A stretch of 64,000 bases of DNA from Anaerolinea sp. (GTDB taxonomy: Bacteria; Chloroflexota; Anaerolineae; Anaerolineales; Villigracilaceae). Positions 12,312 through 41,389 of this stretch are shown here, one piece after another. Below the pieces are notes generated by a model. That model did no database searches, was not told the origin of the DNA, and saw nothing but the letters and a program-made list of their open reading frames with translations. The position numbers and the translations under genes were made by a program. The stretch is taken from positions 1-64,000 of the forward strand of contig DYID01000007.1 of NCBI GenBank assembly GCA_020723805.1. The letters are read 5' to 3'. Numbering within the stretch: position 1 is the first letter of the stretch; each line of letters starts with the position of its first letter.

Positions 12312-13760
12312 ATGTGGCACAACTACATCAACGCAACCACAATTGACGAAGCGCTGGCTGTGCTAGCCGAACAGGGGGAGCGCGCCCGCCTCATCGCCGG
12401 CGGCACCGACCTCATCCTCGAACTCGAACGCGGCGTCCGCAAAGGCATTCACACCCTCATAGACATCTCGCGCATCCCCCGCCTCGACCAGATCACTCTG
12501 GACGAAGACGGCATCATCCACCTCGGCGCGCTCGTGACGCACAACCACTGCGTCGCATCGAAACTCATCCGTGAGCGGGCGGCGCCTCTGGCGCGGGCGG
12601 CGTGGGAAGTGGGCGCGCCGCAGATTCGCAACCGCGGCACGGTGGCAGGCAACCTCATCACCGCCTCGCCCGCCAACGACACCATCACCCCGCTCATGGC
12701 GCTCGACGCATCCGTCACCCTCGCCTCCATCCGCGGCAAACGCACCGTTCCCCTCAAAGACTTCTACACCGGCGTCCGCAAAACGGTGATGCAGCCCGAT
12801 GAAATGCTCGTCGAGATTTCCTTCCCGGCGATGAAAGAGACACAGCGCGGGACGTTCATCAAACTGGCGCTGCGCCGCGCCCAGGCAATCTCGGTCGTCA
12901 ACGCGGCGGTCATCCTTAATCTGGAGGCGGATACTGTTCAATCCGCCTCGATCACGCTGGGAGCGGTTGCCCCCACCATCATCCACGCCCCCGAAGCGGA
13001 AGCGTTCCTCCGCGGCAAGCCGCTCACCGACGATGTCATCGAGGAAGCCGCCCGCCTGACGATGGAAGCCGCCCGTCCGATTGACGACATTCGCGGTTCC
13101 GCCGCCTACCGCCGCGAAATGGTGCGCGTTTGCACCCGGCGCGGGCTGAGGTCACTGCGCGATGGGGCGACTCAGGCTCAGGTCCCGCAAGAGGCGGTGT
13201 TGTTGTGGGGAAATGAGGCGTCAAAGGTCGAAAGTCAAAGGGTGGAATTTCCCGCCAATCCCATTGAGACAACGGTCAACGGCAAAAAATACACGGTCAA
13301 CAGTGGATATGAAAAGACCCTGCTGCGCTTCCTGCGCGAAGACCTCGGTCTGACCGGCACCAAGGAAGGCTGCGCCGAAGGCGAGTGCGGCGCATGTACC
13401 GTCTTCCTCGACGGCAAGGCAGTGATGGCATGTCTCGTCCCTGCGCCGCGCGCGCACGGAGCCGAGATTGTCACGGTAGAGGGTCTGGCGGACCTCACCC
13501 CCGCCCCCTCTTCTAAAGGAGAGGAGAGATTGCATCCGGTGCAGGAGGCGTTCATTGAGGATGGCGCGGTGCAGTGCGGGTATTGCACGCCGGGTTTCAT
13601 CATGTCGGCGGCAAAATTGCTGGAGGAAAAGCCCAACCCCACGCGGGAGGAGATCGAGCAGGCGATTACCGGTAATCTGTGCCGCTGCACGGGCTATTAC
13701 AAGATTGTGCAGGCAATCGAACATGCGGCGCAAAGGAAGGTGAGCCATGGGCAAGTATAG
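12312..13760 (+). CDS. Molybdenum hydroxylase FAD-binding and 2Fe-2S subunits fused in one protein
   Basis: Electron-transfer subunit of a xanthine dehydrogenase-type enzyme. Residues 1-285 are the FAD-binding (CoxM-like) domain with LIAGGTDLI (about 28-36) and [20 protein letters not shown] (about 110-129). Residues about 315-475 are the CoxS-like domain with a plant-type cluster (C354, C359, C362, C374) and a second cluster (C422, C425, C457, C459). The linker at 303-312 is encoded by a dispersed GTCAAAGGTCGAAAGTC repeat, and a second repeat adds about a dozen residues ([11 protein letters not shown] region) before LHPVQ. The large subunit is at 14279. Confidence 0.9.
13219..13243. repeat. 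Dispersed GTCAAAGGTC-type repeat inside the FAD/2Fe-2S gene
   Basis: GTCAAAGGTCGAAAGTCAAA at 13221-13240 matches intergenic copies at 31681-31731 and 58280-58345. It falls in frame exactly at the junction of the two fused domains. Confidence 0.75.
13494..13529. repeat. CTCACCCC...GGAGAGG repeat inside the 2Fe-2S domain
   Basis: CTCACCCCCGCCCCCTCTTC then TAAAGGAGAGGAGAG is an in-frame copy of the repeat at 6659-6693 (opposite orientation). It adds residues between GLAD and LHPVQ that most CoxS proteins lack. Confidence 0.7.
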
Positions 13761-29040: not shown

Positions 29041-29118
29041 CTGATGTTACGCACCGTCCCGAAGGTTTTAGCGCGTAACAAGGCTCTTTTCAGAGAACCT
29101 TCGGGACGTTCTGAATTA
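29038..29118. repeat. Type 1 palindromic element (copy 2)
   Basis: It starts TAACTGATGTTACGCACCG, with CCCGAAGG and CCTTCGGG arms, but the middle differs from the other copies and the right terminus is lost. The first TAA is the kinase stop codon. Confidence 0.8.
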
Positions 29119-38872: not shown

Positions 38873-38925
38873 AACAGCCAGGAATGTTTCGAAAAACATG
38901 AAAGCCGCATCTTTGACACATCGGG

Positions 38926-38931
38926 TATAAT
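38926..38931 (+). promoter_or_regulatory. -10 box of the glmS transcript
   Basis: TATAAT lies about 55 bp before the predicted ribozyme cleavage site and past the TadE terminator. No -35 box at normal spacing is clear: TTGACA at 38913-38918 is only 7 bp away. Confidence 0.5.
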
Positions 38932-39040
38932 CCCGTCGCATATTTTTCGTGCGGAGGTGAAACGGCACATTTTCACGGGAAAGACAGCGCATGGACCTTA
39001 GTCTGATAGTCGGTGAGTCTGGAGTCTAATAGTCTTATAG

Positions 39041-39130
39041 TAACTGATGTTACGCACCGTCCCGAAGGTTTGGCTGGAAAATAGGCATAATTTGCGAGAG
39101 CCTTCGGGACGTTTCGCGTAAGGTGAGTTA
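39041..39130. repeat. Type 1 palindromic element, complete, within ribozyme P1
   Basis: A 90-bp element with terminal repeats TAACTGATGTTACGC (39041-39055) and GCGTAAGGTGAGTTA (39116-39130), and CCCGAAGG/CCTTCGGG arms inside. It is the best-preserved copy and shows both ends. Confidence 0.85.
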
Positions 39131-39234
39131 TAGTAAATATCACAAAACAATGAGACTATAAGACCATAGACTGTAAGGCTATAAGACTAAAGTTGACGAG
39201 GATAAGGGTTCTCCACCGCGAGGTGGAGTTAACT

Positions 39235-39327
39235 ACCTCTCCCAACCCCACCCGCCCTGACGGCCCCCCCCCGTTCCCTCTCCTGCAGGAGAGAGAACGG
39301 GAGGGATGGGGTGAGGAAGTGAGAGGT
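39235..39327. repeat. GC-rich repeat between ribozyme P2 and core loop
   Basis: CCTCTCCCAACCCCACCCGC at the left is mirrored by GGGAGGGATGGGGTGAGGAA at the right around TCTCCTGCAGGAGA. It includes a run of ten C. It belongs with the CTCACCCC...GGAGAGG family at 6659 and 13494. A separate CTCCACC/GGTGGAG hairpin (39211-39227) precedes it. Confidence 0.7.
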
Positions 39328-39461
39328 CAGGAAAATCGAAAGATCAGCGGAAGCCCTTCGGGCGCGCCATCGCCCGTTCTCTTTCCCTCCGAACAAAGGA
39401 CCCTGTCACAACGCCGCGCGGGAAACCGTGCGGACAAAAAAACAGGGAATGGCAACACATC

Positions 39462-39527
39462 GTATCGAGTTTCAGGTTTCAGGTGTCACATTTTTTCACC
39501 TGATACTTGATACTTGGTATCTGAAAC
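39462..39527. repeat. GTATCGAGTTTCAGG/CTTGGTATCTGAAAC repeat
   Basis: TTTCAGGTGTCAC and CACCTGATACTTG form inverted arms around a T run. It lies between the ribozyme and the glmS ribosome-binding site; it might fold into a stem that affects expression. Confidence 0.55.
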
Positions 39528-39547
39528 TTTCTTTTCGGAGGAATCCC

Positions 39548-41389
39548 ATGTGTGGAATCGTAGGCTATATCGGACCGCGCGACGCGGTGCCGGTTATTAT
39601 CAACGGCTTGAAACGGCTCGAGTACCGCGGCTATGACTCGGCAGGCGTCGCTGTTTTGAGCGGAGATCAAATCGAGGTCAGGAGAGACGCGGGAAAGTTA
39701 TCCCAGTTGATTGACCTGGTGTCAAAGTCGCCCATCGCCGGCGCGCCGGGCATCGGTCATACGCGCTGGGCAACGCACGGAGCGCCGTCTGCGCGCAACG
39801 CCCACCCGCACCTCGGGCAGACCAAACGCGTGGTCGTCGTCCAAAACGGCATCGTCGAAAACTTCCTCGAACTCAAGGACGAACTGACCGCCGAAGGCGT
39901 GGAGTTTCAATCGGAGACCGACACCGAAACCATCGTGCATCTCGTGGAGCATTATCTTGCCACCGGCGTGGGGCTGGTGGAAGCCGCGCGAAAGACATTC
40001 AACGACATTCAAGGCGCAAACGTGGTAGTGCTGATGTCTGCCGATGAGCCGGACAAGATCGTGACGGCGCGCATCGGCAACGCCGGCGGCGTGGTGATTG
40101 GTTTGGGAGAGGGCGAGAACTTCGTCGCCAGCGACATTCCCGCCATCATGGAACACACGCGCGATGTCATCTTTTTGGAATCGCGGCAAATGGCAGTGGT
40201 GACGCGCGATTCGGTCAGCGTGGAAACGCTCGACGGCGCAAAAATCAAGCCGCAGGTTCACACCGTTTCGTGGGACCCGGTGGCGGCGGAGAAAGGCGAA
40301 TACCGCCACTTCATGCAAAAGGAAATCCACGAACAATCGCGCGCCCTCAGCGACACCCTGGCTGGGCGTGTGGACTTTGCCAACGGAAAAATCCGCCTGC
40401 CCGACCTCAACCTAACCGAGGAACTGGCGAAGAAAATCGAACGGATTTACATCACCGCCTGCGGCACCGCCGCTTATGCCGGCATGGTGGGCAAATACCT
40501 CATCGAAAAGATTGCCCGCATCCCCGTCGAAGTGGTGATCGGCTCGGAATTTCGTTACAGCGACCCCATTCTGAACGACCGCACGGTGGTCCTCGCGATT
40601 TCACAATCGGGCGAAACCGCAGACACTCTCGCCGCGATGGAAGAGGGACGCCGCAAAGGCGCAATTTTGTGGAGCATCGTCAATGCGATTGGCTCGCAAG
40701 CCATGCGCATTGCCGACGGATTCATCTCGATGCAAACCGGACCCGAAATCGGCGTCGCCTCGACCAAAGCCTTCACCGCCCCGCTGGTGGATCAGTACAT
40801 GCTGGCGATCCTGCTCGCCGACCTGCGCGGCACGCTCGACGACAAAACCCGCCGCGCGCTCGTCGCCGACCTGCGCCTCATCCCGGACCTGGTGGGACGC
40901 ACCCTCGAACGCGAAAGCGAAGTCGAAGCCGTCGCCCACATCCTCAAAGACATCCGCAACTGCCTGTACCTCGGACGCGGCATCAACATGCCCATCGCCT
41001 ACGAAGGCGCGTTGAAGTTGAAGGAGATTTCCTACATCCATGCCGAGGGCTACCCGGCGGGCGAAATGAAACACGGTCCCATCGCGCTGATTGACGAACA
41101 CATGCCCGTCCTGTGCCTCGCGCCAAAAGACCCCTGGCACGAAAAGATGATCTCGCAAATTCAACAGGCAAAGGCACGCGGAGGCAAAGTGATTGCCGTC
41201 GCAACAGACGGGGACGAATTGGTCAAAGGCATGGCTGACCATGTCCTCTGGGTTCCCGAAACGCCGTGGATGCTCTCGCCGGTCGTCACCGTGATTCCGC
41301 TCCAACTGCTGGCGTATCACATTGCCGCCCTGCGCGGGCTGGATGTGGATCAGCCGCGGAATCTCGCCAAAAGCGTCACAGTGGAGTAA
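39548..41389 (+). CDS. glmS: Glutamine-fructose-6-phosphate aminotransferase
   Basis: Makes glucosamine-6-phosphate, the entry to cell-wall amino sugars. The 613-residue protein has the N-terminal glutaminase domain starting MCGIVGYIGPRDAVPVIING (C2 nucleophile after Met removal), HTRWATHGAPS (about 71-81), and two SIS sugar-isomerase domains (ITACGTAAYAG; ISQSGETADTLAA; the C-terminal ends in PRNLAKSVTVE). CGGAGG lies 7 bases before the ATG; a frame extending to 39428 overlaps the ribozyme and is rejected. The leader carries the interrupted glmS ribozyme, so feedback by its product is expected. Confidence 0.96.
   Translation: MCGIVGYIGPRDAVPVIINGLKRLEYRGYDSAGVAVLSGDQIEVRRDAGKLSQLIDLVSKSPIAGAPGIGHTRWATHGAPSARNAHPHLGQTKRVVVVQNGIVENFLELKDELTAEGVEFQSETDTETIVHLVEHYLATGVGLVEAARKTFNDIQGANVVVLMSADEPDKIVTARIGNAGGVVIGLGEGENFVASDIPAIMEHTRDVIFLESRQMAVVTRDSVSVETLDGAKIKPQVHTVSWDPVAAEKGEYRHFMQKEIHEQSRALSDTLAGRVDFANGKIRLPDLNLTEELAKKIERIYITACGTAAYAGMVGKYLIEKIARIPVEVVIGSEFRYSDPILNDRTVVLAISQSGETADTLAAMEEGRRKGAILWSIVNAIGSQAMRIADGFISMQTGPEIGVASTKAFTAPLVDQYMLAILLADLRGTLDDKTRRALVADLRLIPDLVGRTLERESEVEAVAHILKDIRNCLYLGRGINMPIAYEGALKLKEISYIHAEGYPAGEMKHGPIALIDEHMPVLCLAPKDPWHEKMISQIQQAKARGGKVIAVATDGDELVKGMADHVLWVPETPWMLSPVVTVIPLQLLAYHIAALRGLDVDQPRNLAKSVTVE

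Follow-up and report, generated by a model that had tools for sequence, protein, structure and literature searches.

Introduction

The SAM and preQ1 riboswitches act by a ligand-dependent exchange of strands over the Shine-Dalgarno sequence or a terminator, and in the Clostridioides difficile system, where a c-di-GMP riboswitch is combined with a group I intron, a ribozyme reaction alters the access to the ribosome binding site. The glmS ribozyme, according to excerpts of PMC10907184, PMC10043782 and PMC13273304, acts by cleavage and decay, and not through an expression platform; in the excerpt of the last of these papers (June 2026), glmS variants that might have an expression platform were sought by covariation, and no covarying overlap was found. 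No prior report of a glmS ribozyme in Anaerolineae was found in the literature searched.

Here, a glmS ribozyme is considered that lies in the window, i.e., the whole analysed stretch of 64,000 nucleotides of an Anaerolinea sp. genome (contig DYID01000007.1, assembly GCA_020723805.1), together with its counterparts in the class. If the interpretation proposed below is true, the glmS ribozyme in Anaerolineae is a riboswitch switched by its own cut.

Identity and Organization of the Ribozyme

A complete glmS ribozyme motif occupies positions 38977–39453 (all features are given on the + strand) ahead of glmS (39548–41389, ATG at 39548), which encodes a protein of 613 aa with SIS and glutamine amidotransferase domains. 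The sequence-only reading made earlier of this DNA had claimed all parts of such a ribozyme in order, each paired, upstream of glmS, and this was borne out, as every listed part was located in the window and the gene starts 3′ of the ribozyme. The conserved elements A/GCG (cut at the slash), GACGAGG, AUCGA and CxGCGG follow one another in this order and are accompanied by P1 and P2; P3, P3.1 and P4 with its tetraloop are all present as well.

The cleavage-site segment AGCGCATG (38986–38993, cut between 38986 and 38987) is followed by P1 of 201 nt (38994–39194), whose arms 38994–39003 and 39185–39194 form 9 of 10 pairs by eye, by the core GACGAGG (39195–39201) and by the P2 5′ strand AAGGG (39204–39208), which covaries with its partner. 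After two additional hairpins comes the core loop AAAATCGAAAGATCAGCGG (39332–39350, with ATCGA at 39335–39339 and TCAGCGG at 39344–39350), containing the 3′ strands of P2.1 and P2.2, and then the P2 3′ strand CCCTT (39354–39358), P3 (39359–39376) and P4 (39401–39447), the latter with an inner GAAA-capped stem at 39414–39433. The P3 loop GCCAT (39366–39370) can pair with ATGGC (39449–39453) to give the P3.1 pseudoknot, and CGA of GACGAGG pairs, by homology, with TCG (39336–39338) as P2.1. Inspection of the sequence revealed a palindromic repeat-like hairpin (39469–39527) between the ribozyme and the Shine-Dalgarno region. A possible −10 box, TATAAT (38926–38931), was recognized by pattern only; TTGACA at 38913 is not its −35 box because the spacing is too short. 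Elsewhere in the window, a SAM riboswitch (S box) was found at 121–244 with 77.8 bits, above the Rfam cut-off.

The Rfam model RF00234, applied to a 661-base stretch with the insertions retained, gave a match (20.3 bits, E 0.015) that falls below the gathering cut-off of 37; the genome-wide search gave 13.2 bits at the window ribozyme (E 1.77). In relatives that lack the P1 insert, the scores are 22.6 (G014), 33.3 (G006) and 42.5 bits (G003, above the cut-off), and among the 61 genomes of the relatives search a match at E ≤1 was obtained in 50 and a score above the cut-off in 9. The covariance model R1, built from alignment A1 of 29 natural leaders with short loops, gives 104.3 bits in the window (E 1.7e-20), covering model positions 17–169 only; the match begins at 39165, inside P1, and the cut-site segment, which is outside it, was placed by motif. 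A search of 298 Anaerolineae genomes with R1 found the form that it describes in 181. A further RF00234 match, L001 (13.3 bits), was tried as a second ribozyme and rejected, since the stretch inspected has no core motif.

GlmS is present in 56 of the 61 genomes, and the ribozyme motif stands in 49 of the 53 assessable glmS leaders of the window genome and its relatives (G022, G027 and G040, where glmS starts off-contig, are left out of the 53), so that the comparison with homologous leaders, also suggested earlier, came out in favour of the ribozyme. Its core is absent from the assessable glmS leaders of G002, G010, G034 and G056. In the glmS leaders of loci L041, L047, L062 and L064 the ribozyme core was not found, and two of them, L041 and L047 from the genus of the window genome, retain CGGAGG before the start. 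Judged by its sequence, the element belongs to a Chloroflexota subtype of the glmS ribozyme, and its catalytic activity is putative.

Catalytic Core

A at position 5, together with UCAGCGG in the core loop, had been taken as a possible sign of a changed or weakened core. This is unsupported: among 132 leaders, positions 5 and 53 are A/A in 100, C/G in 26, C/A in 5 and T/G in 1 (at the level of families, A/A in 32 and C/G in 17), and a weakening peculiar to the window genome was rejected on these counts. The A5/A53 combination is the common state of the class and fits the bulge-shifted P2.2 of PMC7125110, whose numbering is used here. In that paper, a P2.2 with U6 paired to A53 and A5 bulged was deduced from double mutants, A6U had about 1.5 times the activity of the consensus, and single changes at position 5 or 53 of the core construct were mostly harmful. 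The segment AGCGCATG would provide the 5′ strand of such a P2.2 in the window, where the pairs C2-G56, G3-C55, C4-G54, U6-A53 and G7-C52 are possible, as is, from the letters alone, the CGA/UCG pairing of P2.1. Leaders with A53 have U6 in 89 cases out of 105, and 84 of these 89 have A5; U6 is missing in the other 16, and the shifted pair does not fit there. The P3.1 pairing score is 5.23 vs. 4.68 ± 0.075 for reshuffled partners (n = 128). Inserts of tens of bases inside the core loop, between AUCGA and UCAGCGG, were observed in L069 and L076 (G044 and G057), both sampled members of one family.

Helix P0 across the Cut Site

Just 5′ of the cut, GGGAAAGA (38977–38984) pairs with UCUUUCCC located 3′ of P3, and the 3′ strand of this helix, P0, reads TCTTTCCC at 39380–39387; the two strands covary. 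In the RF00234 consensus, nothing is paired 5′ of the cut, and P3 is separated from P4 by 4 unpaired positions; relative to this model, P0 is an addition of the Anaerolineae leaders.

The mean best pairing of P0 is 7.35 vs. 6.14 ± 0.09 for reshuffled partners (n = 131), with a score of at least 6 in 117 leaders and below 6 in 14. With one leader per family (45), it is 7.34 vs. 6.14 ± 0.16, the maximum of 300 reshuffles being 6.61, and with all 135 leaders kept it is 7.26 vs. 6.12 ± 0.09, with a reshuffled maximum of 6.46. A flank 28–40 nt upstream gave 4.92 (n = 77). In the parser's own windows, 119 leaders reach score 6 with 73 distinct helices. The parser at first weighed P0 when choosing cut sites; on retesting without P0, the sites picked were identical in 135 of 135 leaders. 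These statistics are based on permutation and family sampling and are not tree-based. RNAalifold missed P0 because the columns of P0 and P3 were wrongly placed by MAFFT, and the helix was tested, apart from that alignment, by scripts with reshuffled partners. The class search supplied 90 fetched loci, from which 5 repeats of known leaders were removed; the remaining 85 were parsed except L197 and L210. The misparsed leaders G106, G112 and G218 were dropped, as was G071 in the P0 and later tests, and all were restored in the test with 135 leaders.

The Strand Facing the glmS Shine-Dalgarno Sequence

The 3′ strand of P0 overlaps CCUCCGAA, a pairing partner of the glmS Shine-Dalgarno sequence UUCGGAGG. 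The stretch CCTCCGAA (39386–39393), consisting of the end of this strand and the following bases and sharing 2 nt with it, pairs with the Shine-Dalgarno region TTCGGAGG at 39534–39541. Over 116 leaders, the score of the strand with the Shine-Dalgarno sequence is 6.13 vs. 5.33 ± 0.08 after reshuffling (maximum of 300, 5.62). CCTCC occurs in 82 of these leaders, GGAGG in 105 and both in 81, and in 34 CCTCC is absent from the stretch searched.

Covariation was followed beyond these motifs. The base 3′ of CCTCC and the base 5′ of GGAGG form a Watson-Crick pair in 59 of the 81 leaders (A-T 24, T-A 18, G-C 17) and another combination in 22. With one leader per family (33), the value for this flanking pair is 0.569 vs. 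0.311 ± 0.074 (0/500). The tree-aware test on the GlmS tree, which includes the 68 of 81 leaders with at least 45 GlmS residues, gave 51/68 for the flanking pair vs. 20.1 ± 8.9 expected under independent evolution and 46/68 for the next pair vs. 25.2 ± 5.8, both 0/1000.

P0 and the helix with the Shine-Dalgarno sequence use one or more of the same bases in 78 of the 79 leaders where both are strong, i.e., aptamer and platform have a strand in common, with covariation. Where 2 or 3 nt are shared, as in 44 of the 79, trimmed helices could coexist. In our opinion, it is rather probable that the Anaerolineae subtype of the glmS ribozyme carries an expression platform, whose direction and dependence on cleavage we infer.

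A Sister Subtype Facing a Terminator

A second ribozyme of the window genome was found by R1 at C31:178-393 (L223, 178–393) with 77.3 bits. Its cut-site segment AGCGGCTG is followed by CCCTTCC, later by GGAAGGG, a terminator, an ada-like gene and an EamA-like transporter gene, the transporter being recognized by eye. It belongs to a subtype with 14 loci in the window genome and its relatives, whose strand targets a segment upstream of the terminator: L223 (178–393), L086, L087, L088, L026, L143, L178, L204, L221, L229, L231, L233, L234 and L236, most of them with the cut site AGCGGCTG. These loci were chosen, and their terminator-like hairpins named, by eye, and they are to be taken as a chosen set. 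There were 18 second-copy loci, of which nine remained unparsed; three of the parsed ones (G287b, G307b and G299) were left out of the set.

A clear run of T follows the hairpin in 12 of the 14 loci and is lacking in G048 and G060b. The strand pairs with a GGAAGGG-type segment in 13 of the 14 by script; in G093 the script chose another helix, and the match CCCCTCC/GGAGGGG was seen by eye. The genes that follow are glnA-like in 6 loci, ada-like in 2, EamA-like in 2 and without assigned identity in 4; the glnA-like calls were made by eye, with Pfam PF03951 found in both that were tested (G040 and G048), the ada-like identity was tested in 1 of 2, and the EamA-like calls are by eye. At L150, L155, L165, L184 and L192, the ribozyme precedes an aminotransferase-like gene (by eye) or an unassigned one, and the strand matches a Shine-Dalgarno sequence; the short start of the aminotransferase-like gene gave no Pfam match. 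A glmS-type ribozyme was also observed before glnA-like genes at L224 and L225 (G307 and G287); on inspection by eye, neither a terminator nor a CCTCC strand was evident there.

The Proposed Switch

We propose that cleavage removes the 5′ strand of P0 and that the freed strand shuts expression; both the direction and the dependence on cleavage are what we infer. As long as the RNA is uncut, the folded ribozyme would hold P0, which would form before the Shine-Dalgarno sequence is transcribed, so that the strand would be occupied and glmS translated. Glucosamine-6-phosphate would cause cleavage, the 5′ fragment with the 5′ strand of P0 would depart, and the freed strand would cover the Shine-Dalgarno sequence and stop the translation of glmS. 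The freed strand of the sister subtype would pair with GGAAGGGC upstream of the terminator, and termination would be favoured. Whether such a riboswitch, with the cut as the switch and a freed strand that shuts the Shine-Dalgarno sequence or favours a terminator, extends over the class is a question on which we consider yes and no evenly balanced.

Folding was calculated with ViennaRNA for secondary structure only, pseudoknots, tertiary structure and the order of folding being outside the model. Across 114 leaders, the Shine-Dalgarno sequence is predicted to be unpaired with a value of 0.237 before and 0.165 after the cut (lower in 62 leaders, higher in 12). With a shuffled 5′ flank the value is 0.185; of the 114 leaders, 55 have a higher value with the native flank and 23 a lower one. 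As 0.185 still differs from 0.165, the effect is not all due to P0. The predicted effect of cleavage on the exposure of the Shine-Dalgarno sequence is thus modest. For the terminator set, the calculated change on cleavage is from 0.96 to 0.97 for the terminator, and strand pairing is 0.69 in both states. The helix with the Shine-Dalgarno sequence already has a probability of 0.99 in the uncut RNA of the window, where forcing P0 is 2.3 kcal/mol worse, i.e., folding at equilibrium favours the closed state, and therefore the switch would need a P0 held by the ribozyme and the order of transcription.

The same prediction that the window Shine-Dalgarno sequence is paired both cut and uncut suits a simpler explanation, which we regard as possible but doubtful: an ordinary glmS ribozyme, whose cut leaves a 5′-OH and leads to decay by RNase J, with P0 only stabilizing the fold and the helix between the strand and the Shine-Dalgarno sequence serving as a constitutive damper, perhaps stacked on P0. 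RNase J (TIGR00649) was found in 21 of 21 genomes, and the overlap of just 2 or 3 nt in the 44 leaders mentioned above would also be compatible with a damper. This explanation, however, does not account well for the bases shared by the two pairings in nearly all strong leaders (78/79), for a strand that faces the terminator region in the sister subtype, and for the opening of the Shine-Dalgarno sequence by the native 5′ flank relative to the shuffled one.

Repeats in the Hairpin Tips

The span from GACGAGG to ATCGA in the window is 140 nt and contains the GCGA-capped hairpin a (39211–39228) and hairpin b (39235–39327). RNAalifold on A1, an alignment without the longer leaders and without G044 and G057, whose core loops carry inserts, supports P1, P2 and both hairpins; of the 27 pairs predicted, 21 show compensatory changes. 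Hairpin a covaries, and the base of hairpin b, ACCTCTC/GAGAGGT, is a covarying stem of the class, its tip being a GC-rich palindrome; among 50 trimmed leaders, G035 and G045 have one hairpin here rather than two. By these comparisons, hairpins a and b are ancestral in the class Anaerolineae (Chloroflexota). The sequence-only reading had interpreted these stems as a repeat insertion. As the stems covary and are common to the class, what was supposed to be a second insertion is a pair of old helices, in which the GC-rich tip of hairpin b alone is particular and repeat-like, and a recent repeat invasion between P2 and the core was rejected because of this covariation. The GC-rich dispersed repeat reported before the core loop holds in so far as the palindrome core of hairpin b occurs at 5 sites in the window genome, the ribozyme site included; its dispersal is weak, BLAST with the hairpin b sequence matching only itself and its own inverted copy. 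A further copy of the palindrome core, with one mismatch, lies at 13506–13523 of the window.

The outer part of P1 consists of heptad-type repeats with AGTC each 7–8 nt, a pattern with 38 matches in the window genome vs. 2 for the reversed control. Nested within is a MITE of 86 bp (39043–39128), which has terminal inverted repeats, an 8-bp target duplication TTATAGTA (39035–39042 and 39128–39135; base 39128 may be assigned to either the MITE or the duplication) and many copies: the 25-nt pattern with at most 3 mismatches gave 56 matches in the window genome, i.e., 55 sites besides the ribozyme P1, and 0 for the reversed control. The mobile-type element of 90 bp noticed earlier in the P1 loop is therefore real in this slightly shorter form. 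The MITE end is matched at two more sites of the window, 29041–29065 and 1662–1686.

Most likely, the repeats lengthen P1 and the hairpin b tip as neutral additions to these helices. P1 is at least 57 nt long in 18 of 52 parsed leaders, and ten of these 18 have a heptad-like P1, seven of them in the genus of the window genome, which would be expected if the repeat-filled tips were functional, e.g., in protein binding or in slowing the folding of P1 so that cleavage awaits the transcription of glmS. Such a role is nevertheless very unlikely, as P1 is plain (21 nt) in G014, whose GlmS is 97% identical and thus the closest among the relatives searched, as well as in several congeners, and the MITE pattern occurs at the 55 other sites. 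Less likely still is a decaying ribozyme, disabled in the window genome by its long P1 (201 nt) and its GC-rich insert: the RF00234 score under the cut-off, the closest relative without a MITE-bearing P1 and the four assessable leaders without any ribozyme agree with it, but the core, P3, P3.1, P4, P0 and Shine-Dalgarno pairings of the window are intact, the inserts are at hairpin tips and are hairpins themselves, and a long P1 is met in the 18 leaders just mentioned.

Distribution and Comparison with Known Systems

The exact core pattern was found in at least 120 stretches of named genomes, and among the 80 matches listed, 77 carry the label Chloroflexota or that of a taxon belonging to this phylum; the named strain Bellilinea caldifistulae GOMI-1 (Anaerolineae) is among the matches listed. 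The three other labels among these 80 are a Fibrobacteria record, a Spirochaetaceae bin and a Paludibacter bin. The motif precedes a glmS-like start in the last two, and the 150 bases before the core-pattern match in the Fibrobacteria record contain no GACGAGG.

A covarying overlap in many families of this lineage, with two kinds of target, glnA and other genes placed behind a glmS-type ribozyme, and natural pairs with and without repeat insertions at the tips of ribozyme hairpins give these RNAs their significance. To our knowledge, a cleavage-triggered strand exchange such as the one proposed here is known from no other natural ribozyme.

With the RF00234 glmS ribozyme of Bacillus and Thermoanaerobacter, the Anaerolineae form has in common the cleavage core, P1, P2, P2.1, P2.2, P3, P3.1, P4 and the place before glmS; it differs in P0, the two stems that separate P2 from the core loop, the A5/A53 state with a probably shifted bulge and the covarying partner in the Shine-Dalgarno or terminator region. 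The glmS variants of Deinococcus-Thermus treated by McCown in 2011 reportedly have extra stems in the core and an altered periphery, a likeness to the Anaerolineae form. STRR repeats are reported to occur in cyanobacterial RNase P RNA. An excerpt of PMC3488679 describes degenerate heptads that pair into a hairpin in P6b of the tRNA-Leu group I intron of Nostoc. Both are cases of short tandem repeats in a catalytic RNA, as in P1 of the window, although in other ribozymes and another phylum, whereas the window P1 has a MITE nested in a repeat hairpin. The Clostridioides difficile system relies on splicing with a separate aptamer, and for Anaerolineae a self-cleavage dependent on glucosamine-6-phosphate is proposed. 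Finally, the trigger in the SAM and preQ1 riboswitches is the folding of the aptamer, whereas in the glmS ribozyme of Anaerolineae it would be the loss of the cut strand.
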